A DNA stretch of 64,000 bases, from the NCBI RefSeq assembly GCF_001936575.1, contig NZ_MSMP01000005.1, positions 62,001 to 126,000 of the forward strand. Direction: 5' to 3'. The notes under the pieces are model-generated. The model did not search any database and was not told the DNA's origin. It saw only the letters and a list, made by a program, of their open reading frames with translations. This stretch comes from Tenacibaculum agarivorans (lineage in GTDB: Bacteria; Bacteroidota; Bacteroidia; Flavobacteriales; Flavobacteriaceae). Shown piece after piece: positions 8,295 to 24,030 of this stretch; position 1 is the first letter of the stretch, and each line of letters begins with the position of its first letter. The position numbers and the translations under genes were made by a program.

Positions 8295-8332
8295 AAGGTT
8301 GAAGTTATTAGGTAGTGTTTGGTTGAAATGTA

Positions 8333-8917
8333 TTATTTTTTATCGATTTCTGTAGTTACGAAGTCGATTAATTCTATCATAAAAGTTTGAAAATCATTTT
8401 CAAGATCTGAATAACGTAATTTTAAATCTTCAATAGCTAAATTCATTTTAGACCTCCCTTTCGTACGTCGGTTCATTCCGTTTAGAACATCTTGAATACC
8501 ATCAATAAACTGATAATTATATAACCAGTTGTATTGAATCATATAGGGTAGTAATTCTTGTGTTTTTTCTGGTAATATTTCTTTATTCTTTTCTAAAAGT
8601 TGATAAATACTATCGGTATAAATATCTAATGGAATTTGAGAATAATCTCCCCAGTTCTTAGCTAAAAAATGATCGTAAAAAATATCGATAATAACGCCGC
8701 TATACAAGCCATATCGCTCATGTAAACGTCGTTTACTTTTACGTACAATTGTATTGGCATCTGTGAATGTATCTATAGCTCTATGTAGGTAAATTCCTTT
8801 TTGTATGTCTTCTGGATAGTGCTTAAACTTATTTCCTTTTACATGATCAGCTATAAAATTGCCAATCATTATTTGCACATTATTTGGAGATAAATAGAGA
8901 TGAGCTAGAAAATTCAT
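8333..8917 (-). CDS. acpH: ACP phosphodiesterase (AcpH, DUF479)
   Basis: The protein should remove the 4'-phosphopantetheine arm from acyl carrier protein in the cytoplasm. Its 194 residues are the usual AcpH length. Diagnostic segments are MNFLAHLYLSPNN, GNFIADHVKGNKFKHYPEDI, GIYLHRAIDTFTDANTIVR and YSGVIIDIFYDHFLAKNW. The histidine/aspartate pattern (H28-type, LHRAIDTFTD, FYDHFL) matches this HD-like family. The gene sits 38 bases below the D gene of the receptor operon and 38 bases above ggt, all on one strand, so some co-transcription is possible. Confidence 0.9.
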   Translation of the reverse strand: MNFLAHLYLSPNNVQIMIGNFIADHVKGNKFKHYPEDIQKGIYLHRAIDTFTDANTIVRKSKRRLHERYGLYSGVIIDIFYDHFLAKNWGDYSQIPLDIYTDSIYQLLEKNKEILPEKTQELLPYMIQYNWLYNYQFIDGIQDVLNGMNRRTKGRSKMNLAIEDLKLRYSDLENDFQTFMIELIDFVTTEIDKK

Positions 8918-8955
8918 TGCATAAATGTAAGCAAAAAAAGATAATGGTTTTCCTA

Positions 8956-10611
8956 TTACTTAACACTAAAATATTCTTTAAATGAAAGAGGATCTCCTTT
9001 TGGTGTAAATCCTTTAATTTCTATTTGAAATTCACCTGTAACATCTGAAGTATAAAAAACAATTTCATTTTTAGTGGAGTCTACATTAGGATCCCAATAT
9101 AATTGTGTTCTATAATCAGGAACTTGCATGTTGATCTTGTTATGCTCTTGAAAGAAGTACTTCTTTTTAGGTTGAATATTCATTATTTTAAATTCTTGAA
9201 TGGAATTTGAAACTGGAACGTAATCTTTTTTAAAAGTGTTGATAAAAGTAATACCTTGATAAATAGAATTGCCGTAGCAGTATTTCTGATTAATTACAGA
9301 GATTGAGCTGATTTTACTACAATCATAATTCAAAAAACTATCATGATCATATACAATATGACCATCAACAATCAGTAGTGAAGGAATATTACCTACTGCA
9401 CCTGTAGCTTTAGTATCTCCAGAAGGGACTATAATCTCTTGTTTTTGATCGATACGCCTAATTTTTGCACTACTAATTATTTCAACAAAAGTTTCTTGCA
9501 ATGTTTTAAATCGTTTATAATCATCTAATCGATATGTTGTTTTTTTATGGTTAAGTAGCGAGTCATTATATACCAAGGGTAAAATGATATCTTCTTTTAC
9601 GGTATAATACGCGTTTTCTATTTGAGCATAAATACTACGTTCTTTTATTGTATTTATGTTGTTTTGAGTTAGTTTGATTGGTGAGGAGTTATCATTTTCT
9701 TTTTTAATTCCTTGGTCTTCTTTTAGTTTGATACTAAAATCCGAAGCATTAGTATCAAGGATTTGGATGTAAACTTTTTGACTATTCACATTAGGAATAT
9801 TGAAATAAAATTCTCCAATAGTATTTGTTGTGGCAATTAAAGGTAAATGACTATGATCTATTGATAAGGAAATTAATTTGTTAGCTACATTTTTGTTGTT
9901 GTTGCTTTCTATTTTTCCTTTGATTAGATTTCCTCTTAGTTCTGGTAGAAACATAGTGTTTTGATATGTTATTTTGTCAAAATCGGCGTTCTTTTGGTTT
10001 TTTAAATTAAGATGAAAATTATCTTTTTTTCTTACGGATATTGAGAATTTATCAATTTGTAACGTTTTGATTTTTTCTAAATTCAAAAGTACTTTCTCTC
10101 TTTTTTGATATATTGTTTTATCAGTAGAAATTTGTTCACTTGTAGTTAAAATAGTGTTCTTTTTTGATATGATTTCTTGATCTGACTGCGCAACTATTCT
10201 ATCTGAAAAGGGATTGATAATAACAATGGAATTTTCGAAGTAATTTGTGTAGTTTTTCATCCATTGGGTATAGCAAATTAATGTATAGGTATCTGTTTTT
10301 AGAGAAGGATTGATAAAAAAATCACCATAACCTATTCCTTTTTCTAACGCTATTTTTTGTTTTAAAACAGAAGTGTTTTCTGAAGATAATAACTCTATAT
10401 AGGCTATTTTACTGTAATTTGAGAGTTTATGATTTTGATTAAAGCAATAAATCTTATAATACAGTTTTTCCCCAGTAACAAGAAATTCATTATTGTAATG
10501 AACTGATATCTGTTCTTTAGGAAATTTGGATAAATCGATTGTAGAAATAGACTCCGATTGTGAATATGAAATCGAAACGATAGCGAGGAGTAAAAATGTA
10601 ATTATTTTCAT
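8956..10611 (-). CDS. MG2/plug-like exported protein, operon copy 2 gene D
   Basis: This is a 551-residue exported protein with signal MKIITFLLLAIVSISYSQ. Residues about 30-125 look like a macroglobulin MG2-type beta-sandwich (ISVHYNNEFLVTGEKLYYKI, TYTLICYTQWMKN). A middle beta domain resembles a carboxypeptidase regulatory fold (GNLIKGKIES, GEFYFNIP). Around residues 385-450 there is a TonB-plug-like stretch (PSLLIVDGHIVYDHDSF, then YGNSIYQGITFINTFK), but no barrel follows. Proteins of this kind accompany DUF4249/TonB receptor operons in Bacteroidota and no substrate is known to me. It has a close paralogue at 15486-17126 with the same ending (EYFSVK). Confidence 0.7.
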   Translation of the reverse strand: MKIITFLLLAIVSISYSQSESISTIDLSKFPKEQISVHYNNEFLVTGEKLYYKIYCFNQNHKLSNYSKIAYIELLSSENTSVLKQKIALEKGIGYGDFFINPSLKTDTYTLICYTQWMKNYTNYFENSIVIINPFSDRIVAQSDQEIISKKNTILTTSEQISTDKTIYQKREKVLLNLEKIKTLQIDKFSISVRKKDNFHLNLKNQKNADFDKITYQNTMFLPELRGNLIKGKIESNNNKNVANKLISLSIDHSHLPLIATTNTIGEFYFNIPNVNSQKVYIQILDTNASDFSIKLKEDQGIKKENDNSSPIKLTQNNINTIKERSIYAQIENAYYTVKEDIILPLVYNDSLLNHKKTTYRLDDYKRFKTLQETFVEIISSAKIRRIDQKQEIIVPSGDTKATGAVGNIPSLLIVDGHIVYDHDSFLNYDCSKISSISVINQKYCYGNSIYQGITFINTFKKDYVPVSNSIQEFKIMNIQPKKKYFFQEHNKINMQVPDYRTQLYWDPNVDSTKNEIVFYTSDVTGEFQIEIKGFTPKGDPLSFKEYFSVK

Positions 10612-10623
10612 TAGTAATAATGT

Positions 10624-11838
10624 TTAATCTATCCAAAAACTTGGAGCTACAGGTTGACCAACTCGAGTACAATCGCCACATGATTTTCCGATTAAAATAT
10701 AAGGTTGATTACTGTCAAGAGGATCATTAGAAGGGTTATTGGTAAAATGAATATATCCATTTTCTAGTAGGTTTAATAGCGGAGAGCGTCCAAACTGATC
10801 TTCTATAAGTGGGTTAGGCCTATCTAAACAAGCAGAAGTTGTTACGTAGTTTGTGAAATCTGTTGTAGTAATATCTTTTCTATTGATATAGAAACGTTTG
10901 GAATATACTGAGGAAACTTCAAAAAATCCAGAGACTTTAGCATTAGATATATTTGTTTCTGCACTAATATTACTAGGAATATTTCCTAATTGTACTTGAG
11001 AAAAAATCTGATCAGGATCTGAAAATGTACTTAATAATTCATAATAATCGTAGGTATTTTTATTCAAGACATATTGATCTACTTTAATACTGTATCGTAA
11101 ACCAATAATATAACTATCTAAAGGAATTGTTCTAATAGGAAAAGCAGCAACACGATCTTCGGCCAATGTTTTAGTTTCAGTAACCATAATTTTTTTAATT
11201 TTTTGATTACCATAGCAGAAACCTACACCGTCTATATCGGGATCTTTATCTTCAGTAGTAAAGGAATATGGATTTTCGGAAAGAAGTTTAATTCTTCTAG
11301 GACTCCAATGAATAGCCCTTACTTTATAAGTTTCGTCATAAGTATATCTATAATAATTAGCATTTTGATTTGTGAGAATACTATTTACCTTAATCACTAC
11401 TACTCGTTGATTATTATCGTCTGATTCAACATCAAAATCAAGATGATTAATTTCTGAAGTTGTAGGCAATTGTTCTGAAGAGGATTTGTACTTTATTCCT
11501 TTCGGAGTTTCTATGTGTAATGTATATGATTTGGAAGATTCAGCAGCAAATTGAGTGATAGAAGTATACTCGCCATTTTCATTTTCTTGAAAATTATATA
11601 CTGTACCAGTATCATCAGTAATAAATACTGTAGCATTTTCCAAAGGATTAGGTTCAGTAGCATCAATTTGTATAGTATTTGAAAGTACTACCGTATGATT
11701 TTTAACTTCATTAGTTAAAATTGCTTTAACTACGATGTTTTCTTCCAGTGTTATATTATCAATTTCTAAAAGCTGTGTACAATTCGTAATTAGAAAGATA
11801 ACTAATAAAAAGTAAAAGTAGTGTTGACGCTTTTTCAT
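10624..11838 (-). CDS. DUF4249 family lipoprotein, operon copy 2 gene C
   Basis: This 404-residue lipoprotein has lipobox LITNC and Cys20. It has the DUF4249 layout: an early beta domain (ENIVVKAILTNEVKNHTVVLS, NPLENATVFITDDTGTVYNF), a middle region with YRYTYDETYKVRAIHWSPRR, and a C-terminus ending GKSCGDCTRVGQPVAPSFWID. The CGDC plus FWID ending is shared with its paralogue at 17137-18345. DUF4249 proteins are encoded beside TonB receptors and are presumed surface substrate-binding partners, which is inference from context. The gene is 3 bases after the receptor and 12 bases before gene D, so it is surely in one operon. Confidence 0.9.
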   Translation of the reverse strand: MKKRQHYFYFLLVIFLITNCTQLLEIDNITLEENIVVKAILTNEVKNHTVVLSNTIQIDATEPNPLENATVFITDDTGTVYNFQENENGEYTSITQFAAESSKSYTLHIETPKGIKYKSSSEQLPTTSEINHLDFDVESDDNNQRVVVIKVNSILTNQNANYYRYTYDETYKVRAIHWSPRRIKLLSENPYSFTTEDKDPDIDGVGFCYGNQKIKKIMVTETKTLAEDRVAAFPIRTIPLDSYIIGLRYSIKVDQYVLNKNTYDYYELLSTFSDPDQIFSQVQLGNIPSNISAETNISNAKVSGFFEVSSVYSKRFYINRKDITTTDFTNYVTTSACLDRPNPLIEDQFGRSPLLNLLENGYIHFTNNPSNDPLDSNQPYILIGKSCGDCTRVGQPVAPSFWID

Positions 11839-11841
11839 TTT

Positions 11842-14568
11842 TTAGAATTTAAAATTATAGGTAATAGTTGGAATGGGAACAGAAAAGATAGAGTTTTGAT
11901 AGCTTTGTACATTTCCATTAACAGATTCAAAAAAGACAGAGTAAGGGTTATTTCTACCCAAAACATTGTATACAGAGATGTTCCAAAAACTATGAGCGAA
12001 TTTTTTTATTTTATGATTTCCTTCAATATTTATTCCGACATCCATTCTATAGTAATCAGGTATTCTAAACTGATTTCTATTACTGTAGGTTAAAAACTCT
12101 ATATCGTTAATTATAAATTTTCCTGTAGGATAGGTAATAGGTTTACCTGTTTGATAGGTGAAGTTTACAGATAAACTATATCGCTTAGTAAATTTATAAT
12201 TTAAAACAGCATTAACATCATGCGGTATATCGTAATTAGTTGGAAAAAAGTTACCATTATTCACCCTTTCTTCATCAAACATACTATTTAACTGAATTAG
12301 AGATCTAGAATAACTGTATCCCAACCAACCGTTTAAGCGACCATTATTTTTTCTGAATAAAAATTCTACACCATAAGATTTTCCTTTTCCTTGAATTACT
12401 TCAGTTTCAATATTTTCATTTAATAACAAATTAGCACCTATTTTATAGTCTAGTAGATTGTTATATTCTTTAAAATACCCTTCTAAACTAAATTCGTAAT
12501 TATTGTCTTCAATATTTTTAAAAAGACCTAGAGATAACTGAGATCCTTCTTGAGGTTTTATATTAGAATCAGAAAGCCTCCAAGTATCTACAGGTGTAGC
12601 AGTTGTATTGTTATTTAATCGATGTATATATTGAAATGATTTATTATATCCAGCTTTAACAGAAAAACTATTGGTAAAAGAATATCTTCCAGAAATTCTG
12701 TAGCTTAGATTATGATATGTTTTATAAATAGAATTGTTATCGTGATTAATTGTGTTTACTAATGTTGATTCATTTTTAGGAAGATCACTTTCGTAAATTC
12801 TTTCTGAAGAAGGTCCTAAAGCTAAAAACTGATTCAATCTTAGCCCAAGATTAAAGTTTAGTTTTTTATTGATCTTAATTTCATCTAATACAAACAAACT
12901 ATTCTCTAATGCTTTTTCTTGTGATATATTAAGTGGTATAGTTTCAGAATTTTCTCCATTAGGAAGTATAGACCCTGGATTTATTGTATATAGTTTAAAT
13001 TCTAACCCATATTTAAAATCATGCTTTGCGGAATATTTATATTTCATTAAGAGTTTTAAATCTGTTTCATTGATACGATATTTCAAATTAAACCCTTTAT
13101 TAGTATCGTCACCTTCATAATCTATATTAAAAGTATAATTACTATTAGAAAGCGTTAAGTCTCCTGTGTTTTTAGCATTAAATTTATGTTTCCAGTTTAA
13201 AGAGACTAAAGTATTTCCGTATTCATTTATGGTATCTGATGCAATTTGATATTGATCTCTGCTGTGGTATCCTGTTACTTGTAAAGAATTTTTTTCATTT
13301 ATAGTATGCTTGTACTTGGCAATCACATCAAAAAAAGAAACACTACTATTTTTAATATCTTCATTATCTATAAGGTCTAATATCCAATCAGAATATGTAC
13401 TTCTTGCACCTAATACTAAACCAGATGTATTATTAATAATTGGTATATCTATGTTGACATTTCCAGTAACTGGACCTACAGAAGCTTCACCAGAAAGCTT
13501 TTTTGTGTTAGGGTCATTTGTTTGTATGTCAAAAACAGAAGACAGTCTTCCTCCATATTCTGCTGGAATATTTCCAGTATATACTTTTAAATTATTTGTA
13601 GTAAATGGATTAATAGCTGAAAATAATCCTAAAAAGTGTGTAGGGTTATAAATTACGCCATTATCTAATAAAAATAAGTTCTGGTCTACTTTTCCACCTC
13701 TTACATTTACGCCTTCAGATCCTTCTCCTGCTGATTTAATTGCGGGCAAAGTAATAGCAACTTTTAAAATATCTCTTTCTCCTAAAATAGTCGGAATAGT
13801 TTTAATGTCTTTAGCTTTAATACTACTAATTCCAGCTATAGTCTGCCTTATATTTTTAGTTTTATTAGCGTTAATAACAACTTCATCCAATTGTTCGGAT
13901 ATTTCGTTAATAGAGAAATTAAGTATACCATTATTGTAAATAATTAATTTTTTGGTTTCATTTTTGAATCCACTAAAAATGGTTTCTATTTGATTCTCAC
14001 CGTAGGAGAGGTTTAATTTAAACTGTCCGTTTTTATCAGTAGTTGTATAATTACTTTTTTGACTACCAATTATGGTTACGCCCTCAAGGGGTACACCTGT
14101 TTTATCATTAGTGATAATACCTGTTAAAATGTACTTTTCTTTTTTATTATCAGTTTCTTTTCCAATTTTTATATACTCATTTTTTATGTCAACAGAAGAA
14201 TTTACAAAAATAGGTGAGTCTATTTGTGTAGTATTATCACTGTTTTCATAGACACTTTTTTTAATTAAATTTCCTTTAGTTAAAATGATTTTAAATTCTT
14301 CTAAAATGTAATAATTAATATTGCTTGTTTGTAAAAGATCATCTAAGACTTTTTCAATTTTTGAGTTGTTATAAGATATTGAGTATGTTTTTTTTGTAAA
14401 CCATTCGTCTAAGAAATAAAAATGATAATTAGTGTTTTTTTGAATCAATTTAAAGATTTCTATAGCTGTTACATTTTCAGCTTCTAGTGTAATTCTTTTT
14501 TCTTTTTCTTGCGATTGAGCTATGGAAAATAATAGACTAGTTAATATGAAGAGTAGCTTTTTTTTCAT
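11842..14568 (-). CDS. TonB-dependent receptor with STN domain, operon copy 2 gene B
   Basis: This 908-residue outer-membrane receptor has signal peptide MKKKLLFILTSLLFSIAQSQ. An STN (secretin/TonB short N-terminal) domain covers about residues 24-98, a carboxypeptidase-like regulatory domain about 146-222 (GVPLEGVTIIGSQKSNYTTT), a TonB-box-like LDEVVINAN near 228 and the plug about 245-350 (GEGSEGVNVRGGKVDQNLFL). A 22-strand-type barrel ends in TITYNFKF. STN domains often signal to a FecR-type anti-sigma factor, but no fecI/fecR pair is adjacent. The start codon overlaps the stop of gene A (TAATG), implying coupled translation. The ligand is unknown. Confidence 0.93.
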   Translation of the reverse strand: MKKKLLFILTSLLFSIAQSQEKEKRITLEAENVTAIEIFKLIQKNTNYHFYFLDEWFTKKTYSISYNNSKIEKVLDDLLQTSNINYYILEEFKIILTKGNLIKKSVYENSDNTTQIDSPIFVNSSVDIKNEYIKIGKETDNKKEKYILTGIITNDKTGVPLEGVTIIGSQKSNYTTTDKNGQFKLNLSYGENQIETIFSGFKNETKKLIIYNNGILNFSINEISEQLDEVVINANKTKNIRQTIAGISSIKAKDIKTIPTILGERDILKVAITLPAIKSAGEGSEGVNVRGGKVDQNLFLLDNGVIYNPTHFLGLFSAINPFTTNNLKVYTGNIPAEYGGRLSSVFDIQTNDPNTKKLSGEASVGPVTGNVNIDIPIINNTSGLVLGARSTYSDWILDLIDNEDIKNSSVSFFDVIAKYKHTINEKNSLQVTGYHSRDQYQIASDTINEYGNTLVSLNWKHKFNAKNTGDLTLSNSNYTFNIDYEGDDTNKGFNLKYRINETDLKLLMKYKYSAKHDFKYGLEFKLYTINPGSILPNGENSETIPLNISQEKALENSLFVLDEIKINKKLNFNLGLRLNQFLALGPSSERIYESDLPKNESTLVNTINHDNNSIYKTYHNLSYRISGRYSFTNSFSVKAGYNKSFQYIHRLNNNTTATPVDTWRLSDSNIKPQEGSQLSLGLFKNIEDNNYEFSLEGYFKEYNNLLDYKIGANLLLNENIETEVIQGKGKSYGVEFLFRKNNGRLNGWLGYSYSRSLIQLNSMFDEERVNNGNFFPTNYDIPHDVNAVLNYKFTKRYSLSVNFTYQTGKPITYPTGKFIINDIEFLTYSNRNQFRIPDYYRMDVGINIEGNHKIKKFAHSFWNISVYNVLGRNNPYSVFFESVNGNVQSYQNSIFSVPIPTITYNFKF

Positions 14569-15257
14569 TATTCATATATTACTTTCATGAGTTCTATACT
14601 AAATTCTTTGAAGTCGTTTTTGAGTTGTTTTTTGTGTTTTTGGAAGAATTTTGAAATTACTTTTTTCTTTTCTGGAAAGATTTTTATAAAATCTCTTTTA
14701 GACTTTACAATCGTATATTGTTCATCTTTTTGAAGAATATATAGATCTTTTTCCTTTTTGAATGTGTGATGTACAAAGTTTTTATCTTGATTATCTTTAC
14801 TCACTTTGCGATGCTTTCTGAAAAGAGAATAATGTTTATTTGAAGCTATTTTTTCTATAAATCCATATGGCTTGGTTTTAATGAAAGAAGTTGCTCCAAT
14901 TTTAAAATTTTCCACAAATTCCTTTTCAGGTATAATTGATATATGTTGATTTAAATTTGAGATTTTTAGAACAACATAATCGTCTACGATATCATATTTT
15001 ATAAAAACGTTATAGAAAATTTCATTTCTATATGTTATACTTCCTTTTTGGAATACGTTTGTTTTAAAAAAATTATGAGTTTCCTTACTTCTTTTTATAT
15101 ATTTTTCCTTATAAACAGTACCATAACTTAATTTTGTGTTTACATTATTTATAGTATTATCTAAAAGAGAATAAAGTAATTCGTGTTGCTTTGTGTCCTG
15201 ACTTAATAAGTTTTGGAGAAAAAGCACACTGAGAAAGAAGATGGTTAACTTCTTCAT
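14568..15257 (-). CDS. Small exported protein of unknown function, operon copy 2 gene A
   Basis: This is a 229-residue protein with signal peptide MKKLTIFFLSVLFLQNLLSQ. It begins the mature part with KQHELLYSLLDNTINNVNTK and then LSYGTVYKEKYI. It is rich in Lys and aromatic residues and has no recognised domain. The paralogue at 21054-21758 shares the pattern LSYGxxxxEKY, SKETHN, YDxVDD and the ending in which IFPEKKK precedes a basic helix. It is the first gene of the four-gene receptor operon and overlaps the receptor start by one base. A periplasmic or surface accessory role is inferred from position. Confidence 0.7.
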   Translation of the reverse strand: MKKLTIFFLSVLFLQNLLSQDTKQHELLYSLLDNTINNVNTKLSYGTVYKEKYIKRSKETHNFFKTNVFQKGSITYRNEIFYNVFIKYDIVDDYVVLKISNLNQHISIIPEKEFVENFKIGATSFIKTKPYGFIEKIASNKHYSLFRKHRKVSKDNQDKNFVHHTFKKEKDLYILQKDEQYTIVKSKRDFIKIFPEKKKVISKFFQKHKKQLKNDFKEFSIELMKVIYE

Positions 15258-15410
15258 ATCAGATTTTTAGCTTGGTTAATTACTATGCAATTTAAAAATT
15301 AACACGTAGTAAAAAACGATAAGTACTTATTTTGCTATTTTGTTTTCATAAAATGAGAATTAATATGAAGTATCGTTAGTTTTGTTGTGTCGAAAGTGAA
15401 AGAATAAAAT

Positions 15411-15445
15411 AAAAAAACACAGTTATTAAAAAATAACTGTGTTTT
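15411..15445 (-). terminator. Rho-independent terminator of receptor operon copy 1
   Basis: A perfect 14-bp stem (15414-15427 with 15432-15445, core ACACAGTTATT) and AAAA loop sits 40 bases downstream of gene D of copy 1. The A-run at 15411-15417 becomes the U-tract on the minus strand. It separates the two operon copies into independent transcription units. Confidence 0.9.
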
Positions 15446-15485
15446 ACGTAGCTCTTATGGGGATTATAGCTAGATAAAATTCTTA

Positions 15486-17126
15486 TTATTTTACACTAAA
15501 ATATTCTTTATAAGAAATAGGTTCGCCATTTTGTGTAAAACCTTCAATTTCTATCTCAAAATCACCTATAACATCTGAGGTATAAAAAACAACCTGATTT
15601 TTTGATACATCTATATTGGGATTCCAATATAATTGTGTTCTATAATCTGGAATACGTTGCTTTTTACTAGTGTTTTGATATGTCTCAAAATAGTATTTTT
15701 TAGGTAGTTGAGCTTTAACGATATCAAAACTTTTAATGTAATCTGATTGAGGGATGAATTCTTGTTTAAATGTTTTTACATCAATTAATCCTTGACAAAT
15801 TTGTCCTCCAAATACATATTTATCTCTAACCACAGCTATGCTTTCTATTTTTTTTGGATCAATATCAAATAATTGATTATGATCATAAACAATATATCCA
15901 TCTACAATTAACAGTGTTGGTAGAAATTTTTGCGTTTTAGCATTAGGTTCTCTAACATGCAAAGAATATGTTTCACCTTCTTTAGTATAAAAAACGCTTT
16001 CTAAAACTTCAATAATTGTTTTTTTAACAGTTTTAAATCGTTTATAATCATCTAATAAAAAAGTTTCTTTTCTTTCGTCGAAGCTAGATTTTGATTTTGA
16101 TAATGCTATTAATGTGTCCTGTTTAATTTGTTTGTAAGCGTTTTCTACTTGTAAGTAGAAAGCTCTGTCTTTTATAGCTTCAATTAAGTTGTTGTCTAGA
16201 TCGATTTTAGTAAAATTATCAAACTTCTTATCTATGGTATTATTTGTGATCAACTTGATTTCGTATTTATCCCTAGTTTCATCAAAAACTTGAAGAAGGA
16301 TTTTTGAAGCACTAATGTCTTTTAGATTAAAATAAAATTCACCTTTTTCATTAGTAACACCACTTCTAGAAAAAGTATCATCATTAACTACAGATAAGCC
16401 TATTTTTACATCTGAAACACTGTATAATGAATCTTTAGATTTTATTTTACCATGAATTAAATTACCTCTTACTTCGGGTAAGTAAAAACTATTGTTTTTG
16501 ATTTTTTGGTATTGGTTTTTAGAAAAGTTAACACTTGTTGTTTTATTGGGTATTTTGTTATTTGTTTGTTTTATAGAAATAGAGTATTTACCATCTTTAA
16601 GCTTATCTTTTAAAGATAGATTCACTTTTTCTCTTTTTGTGTATGTTTTTAAGGTATTGTTTCTTTTTAAACCTTCCGCGGAAGTTGACGTTTTACTAAT
16701 TAGATCATTACTTTTAAAAGGATTAATAATAAAAATATTCTCTTCAAAGAAGATGTTTTCATTTTTCATCCATTGTGTGTAAGCGATTAACTTGTAGGTT
16801 TCAGAGTTTAAATTTGGGTCAATAAAAAAATCACCAGAGCCTAAACCATCTTTCAGATTTATCTGTTGTTTAATAACACTTTTATTCTCAGAATTAAGTA
16901 ATTCTACATAAGCGATTTTACTAATTTTAGAAAGCTCATCTTTTCCTTCCAAAAAATTATATAATGTATAATAGAGTTTTTCTCCGGTTAATAAAAAGTT
17001 CGAATTTGCGTGGACATAAATTTTTTCTTGGGGTAATGCTTTTAAATTGTCAACGAAATTTTCAGATTGCCCAATTAATAATGCATTTATAAAAATAAAT
17101 AGTGTTGATAAAAGTTTCTTATTCAT
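15486..17126 (-). CDS. MG2/plug-like exported protein, operon copy 1 gene D
   Basis: This 546-residue paralogue of 8956-10611 has a signal peptide ending at IGQS. The same domains are visible: an MG2-like sandwich about residues 30-125 (KIYVHANSNFLLTGEKLYYT, YKLIAYTQWMKNEN), a regulatory-type beta domain (GNLIHGKIKSKD, GEFYFNLKDI) and a plug-like region (PTLLIVDGYIVYDHNQLFDI, FGGQICQGLIDVKTFK). It ends in SYKEYFSVK. It is the last gene of copy 1, followed by a strong terminator. The plug-like region without a barrel suggests a soluble or lipid-side partner that might contact the receptor, but this is inference. Confidence 0.7.
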   Translation of the reverse strand: MNKKLLSTLFIFINALLIGQSENFVDNLKALPQEKIYVHANSNFLLTGEKLYYTLYNFLEGKDELSKISKIAYVELLNSENKSVIKQQINLKDGLGSGDFFIDPNLNSETYKLIAYTQWMKNENIFFEENIFIINPFKSNDLISKTSTSAEGLKRNNTLKTYTKREKVNLSLKDKLKDGKYSISIKQTNNKIPNKTTSVNFSKNQYQKIKNNSFYLPEVRGNLIHGKIKSKDSLYSVSDVKIGLSVVNDDTFSRSGVTNEKGEFYFNLKDISASKILLQVFDETRDKYEIKLITNNTIDKKFDNFTKIDLDNNLIEAIKDRAFYLQVENAYKQIKQDTLIALSKSKSSFDERKETFLLDDYKRFKTVKKTIIEVLESVFYTKEGETYSLHVREPNAKTQKFLPTLLIVDGYIVYDHNQLFDIDPKKIESIAVVRDKYVFGGQICQGLIDVKTFKQEFIPQSDYIKSFDIVKAQLPKKYYFETYQNTSKKQRIPDYRTQLYWNPNIDVSKNQVVFYTSDVIGDFEIEIEGFTQNGEPISYKEYFSVK

Positions 17127-17136
17127 GAGTTAATTT

Positions 17137-18345
17137 TTAGTCGATCCAAAAATCGGGTTTTACATTAGAGCCAAAAACAGTACAATCTCCACAAGGTCTT
17201 TTTACCATAACAAATGGTAAGTCATTCATATCATCAACATCAGTAAGTCCAGAATCTCCAAAATTATAAAATATATATCCTTCTTGTATAGCTTCTTCTA
17301 AAGGTCTACTTCCAAAATTCCCAAATTTTGGAATTACTCTTGGCTCACAGGTTTCAGGAAAGTCGCTAAATTGATTTTGTAGAACATCTTCTTTATTAAA
17401 GAAAAGGCGCTTAGTAGCTACTGAATTCACTTCGAAGAAACCAATTACTTTTTCTTCTGGATCAGTATCCGAAAAAATGTTTCCTTGAATAAAGCTAACC
17501 TGACTTTGAGCAAATACATTTTCTGAAGTAGAAAACTTATCTAAAATTTCAAAATAGCTGTAAGCATTTAATGTTTGAACATATTGCTTTACAAGGATAC
17601 TATAGCGATCTCTTAATATAAAATCTGTAGGAGGAATAGAACGTATTTTAAAATCGACAACTCTGTTTTCAGATAAATTGGAAGTTTCTGCTTGTAAAAT
17701 TTCACTAGAAACATTAGTTCCATAGCACACTCTTCCAAATTCAGGATCAGCTCTCTTTACTGCTAATGGAGGGTAAACAGATGTATCCAATGTAAAAGAA
17801 CTCCAAAAACGTGAAACAATTTGGTAGGTTTCCTCATATTCATAGAAAAAATATTTAGCATCAGCATTATTACTAAATGAATTGACAGTTATTTCTACTT
17901 CATCTTCATCTTCAAACTGTTTTTTAGTTACTTTAAAATTTATAGCTTCTACTTCAGCAGTTTCAGTAAGATTTTGATCTGTAGAGCTATATGTTTTCCC
18001 ATTTTGAGTTTCAATTTTTAATTGGTAAATGGTATTTGCTTTAGCTGAAAAACTATTATCTGTTGTATAGACTCCCGCTTCTTGTTCTGTAAAATTATGT
18101 ACAATAGTGCCATCTTCTATAACAGAGACTTTAGCATTTCTTTCAGGGCTAGGATCAGTAGAGTCTATTTGAAAAGTTCTTGATAATTTAATGGTATGAA
18201 ATTTATTTTCATTGGTTAATCTACCTTCAATAACTAAAACATCTTCAAAAGTTAAATTAGTAGTTTCAAAAGGTTCTATACAACCTATTATAGAGATCAA
18301 CATGAAACTGAATACTGAAACGATTTGTATTTTATAATTTTTCAT
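17137..18345 (-). CDS. DUF4249 family lipoprotein, operon copy 1 gene C
   Basis: This 402-residue lipoprotein has lipobox SIIGC and Cys22. It shows the DUF4249 pattern with VLVIEGRLTNENKFHTIKLS near residue 37, NAKVSVIEDGTIVHNF, and YFFYEYEETYQIVSRFWSSF in the middle. It ends with RPCGDCTVFGSNVKPDFWID. It is paralogous to 10624-11838. The spacing is conserved in both copies: 3 bases to the receptor gene upstream and 10 bases to gene D downstream. It is probably a surface-exposed or periplasmic partner of the receptor. Confidence 0.9.
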   Translation of the reverse strand: MKNYKIQIVSVFSFMLISIIGCIEPFETTNLTFEDVLVIEGRLTNENKFHTIKLSRTFQIDSTDPSPERNAKVSVIEDGTIVHNFTEQEAGVYTTDNSFSAKANTIYQLKIETQNGKTYSSTDQNLTETAEVEAINFKVTKKQFEDEDEVEITVNSFSNNADAKYFFYEYEETYQIVSRFWSSFTLDTSVYPPLAVKRADPEFGRVCYGTNVSSEILQAETSNLSENRVVDFKIRSIPPTDFILRDRYSILVKQYVQTLNAYSYFEILDKFSTSENVFAQSQVSFIQGNIFSDTDPEEKVIGFFEVNSVATKRLFFNKEDVLQNQFSDFPETCEPRVIPKFGNFGSRPLEEAIQEGYIFYNFGDSGLTDVDDMNDLPFVMVKRPCGDCTVFGSNVKPDFWID

Positions 18346-18348
18346 AGG

Positions 18349-21045
18349 TTAAAATCTGAAATTATAGGTTATAGTAGGTATTGGAGTAGAAAAAATAGAG
18401 CTTTTAAAGCCTGTAACATTACCATTAACGGTTTCAAAAAAGATAGAATATGGATTGTTTCTACCCAGAACATTATATACAGATATATTCCAAAAACTGT
18501 GGGCAAACTTTTTAATTTTATGATTTCCTTCAATATTTATTCCAATATCAAGTCTATAATAATCAGGAATTCTAAATGCATTTCGATTGCTATAATTCAA
18601 AAACTCTGATCCTTGGAAGATAAATTTACCTGTAGGGTAGGTAATAGGCCTTCCTGTTTGATAACTGAAATTACTAGAAATACTATATCTTTCCGTTAGT
18701 TTATAATTCATAATGATATCTAAACTATGTGGCTTATCATAGTTTGTAGGAAAGAATTTCCCATTGTTTACAATTTCTTCATTGAAATTACCATCTAGTT
18801 GTATTAATGATCTGGCATATGTATAGCCTAACCATCCGTTTAATCTTCCTGCTTTTTTACGGATTAGAAATTCTACACCATACGATTTTCCTGGACCTTG
18901 TAACACTTCTGTTTCGATAGTTTCATTAAGAAGTAAATTGGCACCAGTTTTAAAATCAAGTAAATTTTCATATTTTTTATAGTAACCTTCCACACTAAGT
19001 TCATAATTGGAATTATCAAAGTTTTGGAATACTCCTAAAGAAAATTGTGTACCTTCTTGAGGTTTGATGTTGTGATCCGATAATCTCCACGTGTCCAATG
19101 GAGAGGCAGTTGTATTATTACTTAATCTGTGGATGTATTGAAATAGTTTATTCACTCCAGCTTTAACAGATAAGTCATCATTTAGTAAATATCTCGCCGA
19201 TAATCGATAACTTAATCCTTGATATGTATTAAAAATTTCGAAATTATCTCTTTCAACTGTATTTAATAAAGACGATTGATTTCTTGGTAAATTATCTTGA
19301 TATATTCTTTGAGAGGTAGGTCCTAAGGATACATATTGAGAAAAGCGTAGTCCTAAATCTATGGCTAATTTATCATTCACCTTGAAAGCATCTGAAATGA
19401 AGATCCCATTTTCTATACCCTTTTCTTTTGGGATATTTAAAGGTGTTACTACAGAGTTTTGCCCTTTAGGATTTATACTTCCTGGAGAAACATTATATAA
19501 CTTAGATTCAAGACCATAAACAAACTGATGTTTTTTAGAATGTAAATATTGTAACTTGAGTTTTAAACCGGTTTCGTTGATGTTATAATTTAAATCAAAA
19601 TTCCTGTTTTGATTTCCTTCAAAATCAATTCCAAACTCATAGTTACTATTAGATAAGATGAGATTTCCTTTATTCTTATCATTAAATTTATGAAACCAAT
19701 TAGCAGTCACTATAGTGTTGTTATATGAGTTTAAGGAGTCTGAAGCAATTTGAAACTCGTCATTACTATAATATCCCGTAATTTTTAAGGTATTATTTTT
19801 ATCAAATTCATGGTTGTATTTTAGTATTGCATCTTGAAAACTAGCACTACTATTAGCCAATTTTTTATCATCTAATATGTTAAGAATCCAATCAGAATAT
19901 GTGCTTCTTGCTCCAACTAAAAGACCTGATTTATCTTTAATAATAGGCACTTCTAAACTTAAATTTCCTGTTACTGGACCTATAGAAGCCTCTCCTTTAA
20001 ACTTTTCAGTACTTGCATCTTTAGTATTAATATCAAAAACAGATGATATTCTACCACCATATTCAGCGGGGGTATTTCCTTTATAAACATTTAAGTCTTC
20101 AGTAGTAAAAGGATTAATAGCAGAAAATAGCCCTAAAAAGTGAGTGGGATTGTACATTACTCCTTCATCTAATAAAAATAAATTCTGATCTACTTTTCCA
20201 CCTCTTACATTAACTCCTTCAGAACCTTCACCAGCAGACTTAATACCGGGTAAAGTAACTACGGCTTTAAGAATATCTCTTTCTCCAAGGACTTGAGGAA
20301 TGGTTTTAATATCTTTAGCTTTTATTTGAGTAATTCCAGCTACTGTTTGCTTTACATTAAAGTTTCTTTTTGCATCAATAACAACTTCATCAAGTTCTTC
20401 ATTTTTTTCTTTTAAAGAAAAGTTAAGATTTCCATCGCTATGTACTACTAAAGCTCTAGAATCTCTAGAAAAACCTGAGGCAGATACTTCAATATAATTT
20501 TTACCATAAGGTAACTCTAAGCTGTAAAAACCATTTTTAGTAGTAGTTGTAAAGATGTTTTTTTCTCGTTCAAAAATTGTTACTCCTTCAAGCGGTTGAT
20601 TGTTTTTTTTACTTTTTATTCTACCTGATAGTTTATAAAAATCTTGTCTTTCTTGTTTTTCTTTACCCACTACATAAGAATCTTCGTCAGTAATTATAGG
20701 TGCATGGTAATTATTTTTTTGATCTTCTTCAAAAACGGTTTTTCTAATCAAACTTCCGTTTGTAAGTATAACTTGATTGTTTTTGGTGATATGAAAATTA
20801 ATATTTGTGGTACCAAAAATATGATCTAGGATTTCAGTAATATCTTTATTATTGAAAGTACCGTTGATTTTTTCAGTATCTAACCAATCTTTAATAAAGA
20901 AAAAACGATAATTAGTTTTTTTCTCAATTAACTCAATAGCTTCAAGTTTACTTAAATTATTGAATTCAATATCTATTTTAGTATTCTGGCTAGATAACTT
21001 TAGGAAAGTTACTAGAAAGATAAGTGATAATAATGCTCTTTTCAT
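18349..21045 (-). CDS. TonB-dependent receptor with STN domain, operon copy 1 gene B
   Basis: This 898-residue paralogue of 11842-14568 has a signal peptide (MKRALLSLIFLVTFLKLSSQ). An STN domain (about 24-98), a carboxypeptidase-like domain (NQPLEGVTIFEREKNIFTTT) and LDEVVIDAKR before the plug follow. The plug contains GEGSEGVNVRGGKVDQNLFL, identical in both copies. The barrel ends TITYNFRF. The plug and last strands are much more alike between the copies than the barrel middle, where loops such as NTKDASTEKF and QTNDPNTKKL differ. That fits ligand divergence after duplication. Gene A lies 8 bases upstream. Confidence 0.93.
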   Translation of the reverse strand: MKRALLSLIFLVTFLKLSSQNTKIDIEFNNLSKLEAIELIEKKTNYRFFFIKDWLDTEKINGTFNNKDITEILDHIFGTTNINFHITKNNQVILTNGSLIRKTVFEEDQKNNYHAPIITDEDSYVVGKEKQERQDFYKLSGRIKSKKNNQPLEGVTIFEREKNIFTTTTKNGFYSLELPYGKNYIEVSASGFSRDSRALVVHSDGNLNFSLKEKNEELDEVVIDAKRNFNVKQTVAGITQIKAKDIKTIPQVLGERDILKAVVTLPGIKSAGEGSEGVNVRGGKVDQNLFLLDEGVMYNPTHFLGLFSAINPFTTEDLNVYKGNTPAEYGGRISSVFDINTKDASTEKFKGEASIGPVTGNLSLEVPIIKDKSGLLVGARSTYSDWILNILDDKKLANSSASFQDAILKYNHEFDKNNTLKITGYYSNDEFQIASDSLNSYNNTIVTANWFHKFNDKNKGNLILSNSNYEFGIDFEGNQNRNFDLNYNINETGLKLKLQYLHSKKHQFVYGLESKLYNVSPGSINPKGQNSVVTPLNIPKEKGIENGIFISDAFKVNDKLAIDLGLRFSQYVSLGPTSQRIYQDNLPRNQSSLLNTVERDNFEIFNTYQGLSYRLSARYLLNDDLSVKAGVNKLFQYIHRLSNNTTASPLDTWRLSDHNIKPQEGTQFSLGVFQNFDNSNYELSVEGYYKKYENLLDFKTGANLLLNETIETEVLQGPGKSYGVEFLIRKKAGRLNGWLGYTYARSLIQLDGNFNEEIVNNGKFFPTNYDKPHSLDIIMNYKLTERYSISSNFSYQTGRPITYPTGKFIFQGSEFLNYSNRNAFRIPDYYRLDIGINIEGNHKIKKFAHSFWNISVYNVLGRNNPYSIFFETVNGNVTGFKSSIFSTPIPTITYNFRF

Positions 21046-21053
21046 AGGTGTTC

Positions 21054-21758
21054 TTACAAGTTGTTTTCTATTTTACTACATAACGCAATCATAAATTTTT
21101 CGAAATAACTTTTTCTTAGTTTGCGTTGTTCGTTAAAAAATTGTTTTATTTCCTTTTTTTGCTCAGGAAATATCTCATAAAAATCATTTTTACTTTCTAC
21201 AGTATAATATTCATTTTTGAATTTTAGAATATAACTTTCACGTTGCTTGAAAGAGTAGTAGTTGTAACTTTTATCTAATTTCTTTGTTTTGGTTTTTTGA
21301 AATTTTTTGAAAAGTGAAATTTGACCAAAGTCTTTTAGAATTTGAGCGTAACCATGTTTTTTGGTATTAACAAATTTAGTGGTATTAATAGTGAAATAAT
21401 CCACTAAGTTATTTTCTAAGTGAATAGATAGACCTGTAGTTACAGATAAATCTGTAATGTAGTCTAGAATTCTAGCAATAACCTGATCATCAACCAAATC
21501 ATATTTAATTTCTACATTGGGATAATATTCTCCATTATAAAAAACACTTCCTTTTGTATATTGATAGGTTTCGTAATAGTTGTGAGTTTCTTTAGATCTA
21601 GCGTACTTTTCAGCAAATAAGGGTCCATAACTTAAAGTAGAATTTTTTAGGTTAACAATTTTATCAAAATTGGTATAAAAAGACTCTAAGTTACTATCTT
21701 GAGAAATTACTGTAGCACAATAAGATATTAGAAAAAGGGATAGCACACTTCTTCTCAT
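21054..21758 (-). CDS. Small exported protein of unknown function, operon copy 1 gene A
   Basis: This is a 234-residue exported protein (signal MRRSVLSLFLISYCATVISQ) and a paralogue of 14568-15257. Shared features are LSYGPLFAEKYARSKETHN near residue 41, KYDLVDDQVIARI in the middle, KKHGYAQI, and a basic C-terminal region after IFPEQKKEIKQFFNEQRKL. No known domain is recognised. As first gene of the copy 1 operon it follows the promoter region at 21759-21820. The A genes diverge more between copies than the receptors do. Confidence 0.7.
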   Translation of the reverse strand: MRRSVLSLFLISYCATVISQDSNLESFYTNFDKIVNLKNSTLSYGPLFAEKYARSKETHNYYETYQYTKGSVFYNGEYYPNVEIKYDLVDDQVIARILDYITDLSVTTGLSIHLENNLVDYFTINTTKFVNTKKHGYAQILKDFGQISLFKKFQKTKTKKLDKSYNYYSFKQRESYILKFKNEYYTVESKNDFYEIFPEQKKEIKQFFNEQRKLRKSYFEKFMIALCSKIENNL

Positions 21759-21819
21759 AGTAATTAATTGTTTGGTTGATTAAATTTAGTTTTTGGAGGC
21801 TAAATCTGGAACTAAAATA

Positions 21820-21846
21820 AAAAAAAACAGCTTTCAAAGCTGTTTT
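21820..21846 (-). terminator. Rho-independent terminator of pepD
   Basis: The stem AAAACAGCTT (21824-21833) pairs with AAGCTGTTTT (21837-21846) around a TCA loop, and the preceding A-run gives a U-tract on the minus strand. It sits just past the pepD stop at 21854 and upstream of the receptor operon copy 1. Confidence 0.88.
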
Positions 21847-21853
21847 TTAACAT

Positions 21854-23320
21854 TTAATTCTTGGTCTTAGGTATATTTTTAAGGATTTCTAATAAAAACT
21901 CCCAAAATTTTAACGTAGATGAAATTTGTGCTCGCTCATCTGGAGAATGTGCACCTCTAATATTAGGGCCAAAGGAAATCATATCCATATTAGGATAATT
22001 TTGTCCTAAAATTCCACACTCTAATCCAGCATGACATGCAGCCACGTGAGGTTCAGAATCATTTAGTTCAATATATAGCTTTTTCATGACCTTTAATATA
22101 TCAGAACTCATATTAGGGAGCCAACCTGGATAAGATCCTGAGAACTCAACATCAAAACCTGCCAATTCGAAAATAGATCGTAATGAGTTGGCTAAATCCC
22201 ATTTATTAGTTTCAGATGATGATCTGGTTAAGCATCCTATTTTGATATTTCCATCCTTAACAATAACTCGAGCAATATTATTAGACGTTTCTACCAAATC
22301 GGTTATATCTGGACTCATACGATATACACCATTTAAAGCACCATAAATAGATTTTATCAAGCCTATTTGAACTCCTAAATCCATAACATAATTAGGTAAT
22401 TCTACTTCTTTAAGTTCTATGGTTAGATTAGGTTCTAAGGATTCAAACTCTGCTTTTATTTCATTAATTAACTCATGTAATTCAAGAAAAAAAGATTCTT
22501 TAGATACTGTATCAACAACTATAATAGCAAAACTTTCTCTTGGAATTGCATTACGTAGGCTTCCACCATTGATTTCTGAGATGCGAAGTCCGTGATTAGT
22601 AAAACCATCAAATAATAAACGGTTCATAATCTTATTAGCATTTCCTAATCCTTTATGAATATCCATTCCAGAATGCCCACCATTTAAGCCAGTAACGGAA
22701 AGCTCAAAAGCTAACGTATGTTCAGGAGTTTCTTCTTGCTTATATGTACCAGTAGCAGTAATATCAACACCTCCAGCGCAACCAATGCCAATTTCATCAT
22801 CTTCTTCAGTATCAAGGTTCAATAAGATTTCTCCGGTTAATAATCCTCCTTCAAGTCCCATTGCACCAGTCATTCCTGTCTCCTCATCAATAGTAAATAA
22901 GGCTTCAATTGCTGGGTGTGCAATATCTTCAGAAGATAAAATAGCCATTATAGAAGCTACACCTAAACCATTATCAGCTCCTAAAGTAGTTCCTTTTGCT
23001 TTAACCCAATCTCCATCAACAAACATCTTGATACCTTCTGTATCAAAATCAAAAACAGTATCTGAGTTTTTTTGATGTACCATATCTAAATGACTTTGCA
23101 TTACTATGGTTTTTCTATCTTCCATTCCGGAAGACGCAGGTTTTCTTATAATTACATTTCCTACTTTATCTACACTAGTTTCTAAATTCAATTTTTTTCC
23201 AAAATCTACCATAAATTGAATTACTCGTTCTTCCTTTTTAGAAGGACGTGGAACAGCATTTAAATCAGCAAAATGATTCCAAACCGCTTTGGGTTCTAAA
23301 TTTCTTATTTCTGTACTCAT
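21854..23320 (-). CDS. pepD: Aminoacyl-histidine dipeptidase (M20C, PepD)
   Basis: This is a cytosolic di-zinc dipeptidase that hydrolyses Xaa-His and other dipeptides. It is 488 residues, the family's normal length. Metal and catalytic residues are visible: His77 and Asp79 in MQSHLDMVHQ, Asp116 in TTLGADNGLG, Glu146-Glu147 in TIDEETGMTGAMGLEG. Later come HAACHAGLECGILGQ and the C-terminal FGPNIRGAHSPDERAQI with a metal-binding His. A lid/dimer domain lies between about 200 and 390. The barrel protein gene upstream is only 14 bases away, so the two form a pair on the minus strand. Confidence 0.95.
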   Translation of the reverse strand: MSTEIRNLEPKAVWNHFADLNAVPRPSKKEERVIQFMVDFGKKLNLETSVDKVGNVIIRKPASSGMEDRKTIVMQSHLDMVHQKNSDTVFDFDTEGIKMFVDGDWVKAKGTTLGADNGLGVASIMAILSSEDIAHPAIEALFTIDEETGMTGAMGLEGGLLTGEILLNLDTEEDDEIGIGCAGGVDITATGTYKQEETPEHTLAFELSVTGLNGGHSGMDIHKGLGNANKIMNRLLFDGFTNHGLRISEINGGSLRNAIPRESFAIIVVDTVSKESFFLELHELINEIKAEFESLEPNLTIELKEVELPNYVMDLGVQIGLIKSIYGALNGVYRMSPDITDLVETSNNIARVIVKDGNIKIGCLTRSSSETNKWDLANSLRSIFELAGFDVEFSGSYPGWLPNMSSDILKVMKKLYIELNDSEPHVAACHAGLECGILGQNYPNMDMISFGPNIRGAHSPDERAQISSTLKFWEFLLEILKNIPKTKN

Positions 23321-23334
23321 TGTAAGTATTTGTT

Positions 23335-24030
23335 TTAAAGGAAAAAGTATGTAAATTTTAACGTCACATAAGAATCGGTACCATTTGGTACCACTGGAGG
23401 TATTGAAGCTGGAGAGTTTCGATGTGGATTAGTTAATCCATGGTGATAACGAACACTAGCCATAAACTTATCTAAATATTGAGCGTTTAACCCGATAGTT
23501 AAAAATAGATTTATAGGAATATTAGTATTTCCAGCATTAAAGTTTAAATTTCTAGTATTAATATTGAAAGGAGTTAAGAGGTATGATTCTTTCTCACTAT
23601 CAACAATGTTATATTTATAACCAAAATCTGTAGTGGGGCCAATACTGATACCAAAGTCAGAATTTCTAGTCACATAATAATTGTAATTTATTAATACAGG
23701 TACACTAAAGTTTTCTAAATTATATCCAATTTCTTCAATTGTAGTTGCAACGCTATTTTCACGCCCCAGAAGTTTTAGATTGTGTCTATTATAGTTTAAA
23801 CCAATAAATAAATCAAAACTATCACTTAATTCTAGAGCATATATCAATCCTAAAGAAAAACCTACAGACGATTTTGTTTCAAGATAATTTGGATCCGACA
23901 TAAAATAAGTTGCTCCACCAGTAACTCCGATTCTACCAGAAAAGATTCCGTTATTGTATCTTCCATATCTTTGACCAAAGACATTAATAAATGCTAAGAA
24001 AATAAGCGAAAATGTAAGAGATTTATACAT
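23335..24030 (-). CDS. Outer-membrane beta-barrel protein
   Basis: This 231-residue protein has a signal peptide (MYKSLTFSLIFLAFINVFGQ). About eight amphipathic strands follow, such as GRIGVTGGATYFMSDPNY, VGFSLGLIYALELSDSFDLF and FSVPVLINYNYYVTRNSD. The end is YVTLKFTYFFL, with a terminal aromatic residue typical of Bam substrates. It resembles the PorT/OmpA-barrel-type Bacteroidota family of outer-membrane proteins. Function is unknown. It starts 56 bases from the recR start on the opposite strand, so the promoters are divergent, and pepD follows 14 bases downstream. Confidence 0.8.
   Translation of the reverse strand: MYKSLTFSLIFLAFINVFGQRYGRYNNGIFSGRIGVTGGATYFMSDPNYLETKSSVGFSLGLIYALELSDSFDLFIGLNYNRHNLKLLGRENSVATTIEEIGYNLENFSVPVLINYNYYVTRNSDFGISIGPTTDFGYKYNIVDSEKESYLLTPFNINTRNLNFNAGNTNIPINLFLTIGLNAQYLDKFMASVRYHHGLTNPHRNSPASIPPVVPNGTDSYVTLKFTYFFL

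Follow-up and report, generated by a model that had tools for sequence, protein, structure and literature searches.

Tandem four-gene TonB-receptor operons of Tenacibaculum agarivorans: an old pair of candidate outer-membrane import modules

Two four-gene blocks follow one another on the minus strand of a 64,000-nucleotide (nt) stretch of the Tenacibaculum agarivorans genome (assembly GCF_001936575.1, contig NZ_MSMP01000005.1, positions 62,001 to 126,000; the whole stretch is called the window below), block 2 (21758-15486) lying upstream of block 1 (15257-8956). Both are full sets of a small exported protein (A), a TonB-dependent receptor (B), a DUF4249 surface-lipoprotein candidate (C) and a macroglobulin-type protein with a probable plug-like unit (D). 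The original prediction, made from the sequence alone, saw in them one operon that had recently duplicated and then specialised for different ligands. Are the blocks such fresh copies, and what might a block do? We computed the anatomy of the blocks, their conservation, linkage and age, and the behaviour of the chromosomal slot that holds them. The copies turned out to be old, each being closest to blocks of other Tenacibaculum genomes. The reading we favour, to which we give a probability of about 0.6, is that each block is a conserved four-part outer-membrane importer, A-B-Cn-D, and that the pair is a cassette array turning over in a slot of this Tenacibaculum clade.

The open reading frames agree with the predicted block order, coordinates, strand and gaps: B and C are 3 nt apart in both blocks, and C and D are 12 nt apart in block 1 and 10 in block 2. 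The A-B junction is a 1-nt overlap in block 1 and an 8-nt gap in block 2. The predicted terminator between the copies is likewise present (15445-15414, minus strand, 14-base-pair stem). A scan of positions 6000-25000 gave 8 terminator-like sites against 5.1 (standard deviation 2.5) in shuffled sequence and is weak by itself, but the inter-block site falls within a stretch that aligns to a relative. The Bacteroidota-type promoter TANNTTTG was absent from the 260 nt upstream of A1 and of A2, and no NCBIfam model scored over its cut-off for any of the eight block proteins. The features of the locus, with protein lengths in amino acids (aa), are as follows.

21054..21758, minus strand: A2, the small exported protein that opens block 2, 234 aa (open reading frame and AlphaFold2 model)
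18349..21045, minus strand: B2, TonB-dependent receptor, 898 aa, with STN-like part, CarbopepD_reg_2, TonB-box-like LDEVVI, plug and barrel (Pfam)
20050..20352, minus strand: plug domain of B2, residues 232-332 (PF07715, 35.4 bits against a cut-off of 23.9)
17137..18345, minus strand: C2, DUF4249 surface-lipoprotein candidate, 402 aa (PF14054, 123.7 bits; lipobox-like SIIGC, then IEPFE)
17140..17406, minus strand: C-terminal extension of C2 past DUF4249, with the CxxC...PxFW end (family-wide motif counts)
15486..17126, minus strand: D2, 546 aa, exported protein of macroglobulin type, probably with a CarbopepD-plug unit that has no barrel (AlphaFold2, VIA, hhalign)
15762..15929, minus strand: plug-like core of D2, about residues 400-455 (hhalign; weak SusC/RagA plug profile matches)
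15414..15445, minus strand: intrinsic terminator between the blocks (14-base-pair stem; aligns with the dipeptidase-gene terminator of locus L131)
15258..15445, minus strand: terminator and A1 leader (homologous to the spacer between dipeptidase and A in genome G263, locus L131)
14568..15257, minus strand: A1, the small exported protein that opens block 1, 229 aa (open reading frame)
11842..14568, minus strand: B1, TonB-dependent receptor, 908 aa (Pfam; 768/908 residues identical to B of G263)
13546..13848, minus strand: plug domain of B1, residues 241-341 (PF07715, 24.9 bits against a cut-off of 23.9)
10624..11838, minus strand: C1, DUF4249 surface-lipoprotein candidate, 404 aa (PF14054, 120.1 bits; cut-off 28.5)
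8956..10611, minus strand: D1, macroglobulin-type protein with a probable barrel-less plug unit, 551 aa (open reading frame)
21822..21848, minus strand: terminator between the dipeptidase gene and block 2 (terminator scan)
21854..23320, minus strand: M20-family dipeptidase (here PepD), left edge of the slot (Pfam Peptidase_M20 and M20_dimer)
8333..8917, minus strand: acyl carrier protein phosphodiesterase (AcpH), right edge of the slot (Pfam ACP_PD, 247 bits)
6615..8294, minus strand: gamma-glutamyltranspeptidase (GGT), right edge of the slot (Pfam G_glu_transpept, 549 bits)

Compared copy to copy, the proteins are identical at 85/226 positions in A (38%, in line with the predicted divergence of the A proteins), 545/898 in B (61%), 154/396 in C (39%) and 243/535 in D (45%). 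Within B, identity is lowest in the signal/STN region (47/137, 34%); the CarbopepD domain stands at 48%, the N-terminal part of the barrel at 55% (152/274), its C-terminal part at 75% (215/288) and the plug at 79.5% (89/112). The barrels, described beforehand as diverged, are so in their N-terminal part but not uniformly; the plugs are indeed conserved, but to call them near-identical was an overstatement, given their residue identity and synonymous sites near saturation. Over whole genes, synonymous divergence (dS) is 1.3-1.7, near saturation, and the ratio of nonsynonymous to synonymous divergence (dN/dS) runs from 0.18 (B) to 0.45 (C). These values fit paralogous tandem operons but not a recent duplication. 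Gene conversion of the plug was considered and ruled out: in a plug tree each of the two B copies stays with its orthologues, and among conserved four-fold codons the third base agrees in 15/35 cases in the plug and in 11/21, 16/34 and 24/51 in other parts of B. Because third-base identity is no higher in the plug than elsewhere, the likeness of the two plugs is, judged from the codons, a product of purifying selection and not of homogenisation.

Trees lead to the same conclusion. Among 43 B proteins, B1 groups with those of L010, L011 and the first L009 block (support 100/99), and B2 with those of the second L009 block and L008 (100/99). A tree of 73 D proteins, built by a quick method only, concurs (99 for the D1 set; 96 for D2 with L009 and 88 with L008). 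With wider sampling, the nearest relative of B1 is in L131 (85% aa identity) and that of B2 in the third block of genome G566 (72%), the genome of L009; L122, a duplicate of L012, was left out of this wider tree. The lineages of both copies form one clade (96/94), separate from L120 and from L012, whose contig is titled Polaribacter. The predicted recent duplication is thus not borne out. A recent in-place duplication of a single operon, whose copies then specialised for ligands, would account for the matching order, gaps and strand, the tandem layout and the placement of B and D of both copies within one Tenacibaculum clade. We reject it as highly improbable because dS is near saturation and the trees place each copy, with starred support, beside orthologues of other genomes; the plug bears no sign of conversion, and the order of blocks varies among genomes. 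By these sequence comparisons the copies are old, not fresh duplicates, and what remains is an ancient duplication that predates the split of these Tenacibaculum lineages.

Nor did the comparisons bear out the ligand specialisation, dN/dS being 0.18-0.45 between the copies and 0.07-0.23 between block 1 and its orthologues. Against G263, block 1 gave 0.20 for A, 0.07 for B (plug 0.03, C-terminal barrel part 0.02), 0.16 for C and 0.17 for D, with 0.05-0.06 for the flanking genes; against G484 the values were 0.19, 0.08, 0.17 and 0.23, with 0.03-0.08 for the flanking genes. These orthologue ratios are rough, dS being about 1 or more in nearly every comparison. We saw no sign of positive selection in block 1 against either relative or between the copies. 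Against both relatives, A, C and D show quicker change than either B or the flanking genes, as expected if they were ligand- or partner-facing parts.

The blocks sit in a slot with the order dipeptidase, blocks, AcpH, GGT. Among 23 Tenacibaculum-related loci, the window counted, AcpH lies downstream in 18, and both edges, the M20 dipeptidase included, are present in 8; G566 also has both. Five modules (L048, L126-L129) are without either edge, and their B proteins fall outside the window's clade. Between the two edges we found one block in L131, L132, L118, L119, L011 and L120, two in the window (order 2-1a) and in L117 (1b-1a'), and three in G566 (1a-1b-2), where the type-2 block is at the opposite end from that of the window. 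The block types, assigned from a tree, are supported at 90/90 (1a set), 80/85 (1b set) and, more firmly, 100/99 (type-2 set). By AcpH and GGT together, the nearest three relatives among those examined comprise two single-block slots (L131 and L132, identity 0.89) and one three-block slot (G566, 0.86); the branching among them is unsupported (0.143).

The spacers between the genes carry a further trace of this history. The window's D2-A1 spacer, terminator included, aligns with the dipeptidase-A spacer of L131 at 150/194 identical positions (score 158; 200 shuffles gave at most 36), and its leader part matches G566 (score 111) and L132 (99) as well. Against the corresponding spacers of L117, L118, L119, L011 and L120 it did no better than shuffles, and the spacer between the dipeptidase gene and block 2 did no better than shuffles against those of 8 relatives. 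The simplest reading of this one relative is that the inter-block terminator was originally that of the dipeptidase gene, with block 2 now standing in front of it. Block 2 may accordingly have been acquired horizontally into the slot, between the dipeptidase gene and its terminator, a possibility that the L131 alignment and the single block of the two nearest relatives by AcpH and GGT keep in serious play, at somewhat less than even odds. B2 and B1 are, however, similarly far from their G566 orthologues (path lengths 0.51 and 0.43), and therefore ancient joint inheritance, followed by loss in L131 and L132, is just as possible. Block 2 may have come to its place by insertion or by reshuffling of a longer array with losses; either way, the pair looks like the two-member state of an old, swappable cassette array rather than a fresh duplication.

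The slot edges themselves invite a functional guess, peptide uptake, which we did not use as evidence, because a terminator separates block 2 from the dipeptidase gene and because the neighbours differ in other genera. Beyond the slot, the commonest neighbour cluster (YifB/ComM-like, judged by eye) occurred in 16/47 loci (L008-L054), in 15 of them downstream, and no conserved pathway partner stood out among the neighbour clusters of these 47 loci.

We then asked how well the module holds together elsewhere. Most counts for the family are given without the window's own genome (L001-L007 and L055), which was kept in the lipobox contrast of A and D given below; loci were not de-duplicated, so that L097 and L100 represent one D twice and the D proteins of L023 and L063 are identical. 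A C gene lies within 400 nt of D in 71/72 cases in L008-L084 and in 29/29 in L085-L111, L115 and L116; the sole D without a nearby C, in L027, begins at its contig end. Full-length D is present in 24/120 genomes of the family. Strong A matches (E 3e-46 or better), read from profile-search listings, occur in 15/120, all within the 24 that have D (Fisher p 3e-13). Within the genus, D matches at E 1e-30 in 14/58 genomes, and the module is therefore patchy; across the phylum at least 30/395 genomes match at this threshold, with 3 candidates scored per genome. A search for the same gene order in other Bacteroidota found it in other families of the class: A-B-C-D or A-B-C-C-D, with D of ~800 aa, in 13/13 fetched loci from 11 genomes. 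These represent 13 of the 15 long-D places (G274:C9 and G562:C35 were omitted, as were the shorter or partial G445, G251 and G197); the C of L110 was taken from an open frame.

Related genes also occur outside such modules. The genome of the window has two plain pairs of a TonB transporter and a DUF4249 gene, one on the window's own contig (L113, 2779-5980; G000:C48:3.8-7.0 kb) and one elsewhere (L114, 4416-7675; G000:C29), both without A, D, the STN-like part or a long C. The same genome encodes a tandem pair of ~825-aa proteins that are distant relatives of D (L112, 4434-9392; G000:C70), scoring 83 and 71 bits against the D profile. They have no Pfam match at E 0.01, and no A, B or C was found around them in 18 kb of fetched sequence.

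The receptor nature of B is well marked. Pfam plug and barrel models score over their cut-offs in B1 (24.9 against 23.9 bits and 78.7 against 27) and in B2 (35.4 and 90.2), and both have CarbopepD_reg_2; the prediction of paralogous tandem operons for a TonB-dependent outer-membrane system is in this respect supported. A TonB box lies ahead of the plug (LDEVVINA in B1, LDEVVIDA in B2), and the TonB-box pattern is found in 38/54 B proteins of the family. The SusC/RagA model TIGR04056 gave B 54 and 58 bits against a cut-off of 368. The best protein matches of the B profile in the PDB were to a XusAB chain (9gbc, E 1.5e-12, in the CarbopepD-plug part) and then to a SusC homologue (8aa4, E 1.3e-11). 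The label 'STN receptor' held for the barrel and plug but not for STN, which is below the Pfam cut-off in both B (16.3 and 18.3 against 28.4 bits), and the N-terminal part can be called STN-like only; FecR_C in B2 is also below its cut-off (20.3 against 24.4 bits). The B proteins of the plain pairs L113 and L114 are without the STN-like part, their CarbopepD starting at residue 24-27, and three more B in G566-G568 match the B profile only from position 157-158 on.

This N-terminal part raises the question of whether B might be a signalling receptor, its STN-like domain reporting the ligand to a sigma/anti-sigma pair, with uptake secondary. The presence of the STN-like N-terminus in the four-gene B and its absence from the two plain pairs would suit such a role. 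Unlike FecA-type signalling receptors, though, the window B have neither an over-cut-off STN nor adjacent sigma/anti-sigma genes: a scan of ten flanking proteins, the two direct neighbours among them, found no such family. We therefore consider a signalling role unlikely.

Gene C is the component whose number varies. Counting C genes among neighbours within 400 nt, and including the broken B of L054, the 39 B-Cn-D units with a complete B have one C in 25 cases, two in 10, three in 3 and five in 1; units whose B is cut by a contig or flank end have one in 8 and two in 1. In 7 of 18 arrays (L008, L018, L020, L022, L026, L028 and L052) the C genes form an exclusive starred group, which argues for repeated independent duplication of lid genes; in the remaining arrays the groups are shared between species or unsupported. 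SusD-type genes can likewise be multiplied beside one system. There was no sign of position-specific lid clades, the first and last labels requiring 16 and 15 changes where shuffled labels required 16.1 and 15.9. An extra C follows D in L010 (5471-6676), L039 (11714-13006) and L120; that of L039 is sister to the C before D, so that lid genes also land beyond D.

We regard C as a surface lipoprotein candidate from its N-terminus. A lipobox-like Cys (lenient pattern) is present in 102/135 C proteins, an N preceding it in C1 of the window. Among these 102, E or D occupies position +3 in 95, P position +4 in 57, F position +5 in 53 and E or D position +6 in 73, the commonest motif after the Cys being V/I-E/D-P-F-E/D. 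This appears comparable with SDDFE, the working SusD-derived export signal of Flavobacterium johnsoniae according to the available text of PMC5080379. At the other end, the C of the module extends ~90 aa beyond DUF4249, with CxxC in 132/135 and a PxFW-type end in 134/135. We compared this tail with the presence of D in 20 proteins of 18 loci, window C2 included, among the best 30 of a longer list of DUF4249 loci from 99 genomes of the order (12 of the 30 gave no C by profile and were unscored). Tail and D were both present in 7, both absent in 13 and mixed in 0; in the scored sample, the tail occurs only beside D. C1 and C2 had no SusD match at E 1.

What D might be is best approached through its fold. 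An AlphaFold2 model of D2 built with 59 family members (predicted local distance difference test score, pLDDT, 88; predicted template-modelling score, pTM, 0.85) retrieved complement C3/C5 and alpha-2-macroglobulins first in both Foldseek (E 4e-10) and VIA (for C3, Z 16.6, root-mean-square deviation 3.8, 213/546 residues aligned; C5 and alpha-2-macroglobulin alike), with low whole-chain TM-scores (0.25 or less). At E 0.01, rather than at the model cut-off, MG2 was matched by 29 of the 59 members (best 2.9e-5) and CarboxypepD_reg by 11, out of 11 families in total; window A and D matched no Pfam family over cut-off. The model thus presents D as a macroglobulin (MG)-type rod-like protein, and the MG2 label of the original prediction agrees with this fold and with the Pfam matches of 29 of the 59 members, the D proteins of the window having none. 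With regard to the plug-like region without a barrel, hhalign aligned D 222-475 to the CarbopepD and plug domains of B (E 2e-4), and the best, weak PDB sequence matches of the D profile were SusC and RagA plugs (E 0.008 and 0.045; positions 423-504), in agreement with the prediction, but the Pfam plug model was unmatched. TonB-receptor plugs were not in the listed Foldseek and VIA rows, although whole-model searches of this kind cannot exclude them. D probably carries a barrel-less CarbopepD-plug unit homologous to that of B. The TonB-box pattern occurs in 2/69 short and 0/13 long D; the short form is without ~190 columns of the long one, mostly after residue 144.

Both D and A have signal-peptide-like starts, with a lipobox-like Cys in 1/72 D and 5/30 A. 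The AlphaFold2 model of A2 (pLDDT 87.6, pTM 0.78) consists of beta strands plus C-terminal helices; it had no known match (best Foldseek E 0.16, best VIA Z 4.2), by which a new fold is not shown. The LolA model NF000665 reached E 0.0016 on A2 only, at 18.5 bits against a cut-off of 202.

The N-terminal region of Oar of Myxococcus xanthus is CarbopepD-like. Oar, too, is a TonB-dependent transporter, but is implicated in protein secretion, and in the accessible portion of PMC6434023 we found no C or D partner for it. In that account a TonB-dependent transporter is required for secretion of PopC, and our module might by this precedent secrete or display a protein, B being an Oar-like exporter and D or A its cargo or guide. 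The signal-peptide-like starts, the rarity of lipobox-like Cys, the faster evolution of D and A than of B, and the lack of an over-cut-off match of either to an enzyme family are compatible with such a role. D is, however, a multidomain protein with a probable plug-like unit, and each module has a single D whereas it is C that multiplies, the opposite of what a cargo array would show; in the known systems, as far as their available descriptions go, lid-type lipoproteins accompany import; secretion seems to us correspondingly doubtful.

Import is, by analogy with DUF4249 pairs, the most likely direction. In Bacteroides thetaiotaomicron, BT2172 and BT2173 form a pair of TonB transporter and DUF4249 'lid' (Price et al., cited in PMC11003636), and disruption of either had similar consequences, according to the accessible text of PMC11003636. 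Like these pairs, the blocks have an over-cut-off DUF4249 gene adjoining a TonB-dependent transporter gene; unlike them, the four-gene form adds the STN-like part of B, the ~90-aa tail of C, D, mostly A, and up to five C, a comparison made with L113 and L114 of the window's genome. On this comparison, the module amounts to the known two-gene lid transporters with further parts added. SusCD/RagAB also combine a barrel-plug receptor with a surface lipoprotein, and the plug-like unit of D weakly matches their plugs, but the window B fall below the SusC/RagA cut-off and their partner is DUF4249, not SusD. BtuBG and XusAB, importers of vitamin B12 and xenosiderophores, are transporters with a surface lipoprotein lid as well; XusB, by contrast, is a propeller of the DUF4374 family and has a gene for a PepSY protein next to its own, and no macroglobulin-type partner was found in the part of its description available in PMC13142918. 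D has MG-type domains in common with alpha-2-macroglobulin and complement C3-C5 but is only 550-800 aa long and has the probable CarbopepD-plug unit.

We propose the following scheme. B would be the energised barrel, with TonB box, plug, barrel and periplasmic STN-like domain, its plug shifting on the pull of TonB. From the two-gene systems we infer that C would be a surface lipoprotein that captures the ligand and caps B much as the SusD and BtuG lids do; where one B is accompanied by several C, the barrel would have several surface receptors. D may dock on the B-C complex, either using its plug-like unit from the periplasmic side or serving C as a scaffold, and, having no TonB box, may stabilise or gate it; A may be a small periplasmic or outer-membrane-associated helper. 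The docking of D, the role of A and a turnover of blocks that serves ligand range are what we infer for the remaining parts.

Several observations weigh against this favoured reading. The genetic data, in the sources as available, are limited to two-gene relatives. Strong A is missing from 9 of the 24 D-positive genomes, two of which have a weak A match, and nine genomes that have no full-length D do have weaker relatives of A (E down to 1e-5); for these reasons A is not exclusive to the module as a superfamily. The TonB-box pattern is missing from 16/54 B. The plug of D is weakly supported, with an hhalign probability of 46%, no Pfam match over cut-off in the window D, and PF07715 matched by 0/59 family members at E 0.01. 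The slot is not universal, 5/23 loci lying elsewhere and the left edge being seen in 8/23, and the terminator itself was matched in L131 only, a single relative.

A bolder version, in which D is a detached second plug on a macroglobulin rod that gates or re-seats B, the one to five C are interchangeable lids, and these cassette-swapped machines make up a new importer class, strikes us as speculative and rather improbable. Neither the four-gene form nor multi-C DUF4249 arrays were found described in the literature searched, which excluded most preprints and subscription journals. Bacteroidota depend centrally for their feeding on TonB importers that have lipoprotein lids, and to these the four-gene form adds a probable barrel-less plug carried by a macroglobulin scaffold and, often, more than one lid for a barrel. 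The system is thus suited to asking whether one barrel takes alternative lids and what a second plug would do.

Two minor observations concern other DNA. L050, on a contig titled Bacteriovorax sp. (Bdellovibrionota), is a B-C-D fragment whose C groups with Lutibacter; it is probably misbinned. Upstream of the slot, the window has two small Lipocalin_4 (lipocalin-like) genes in tandem at 24764-25565, near a recR-like gene.

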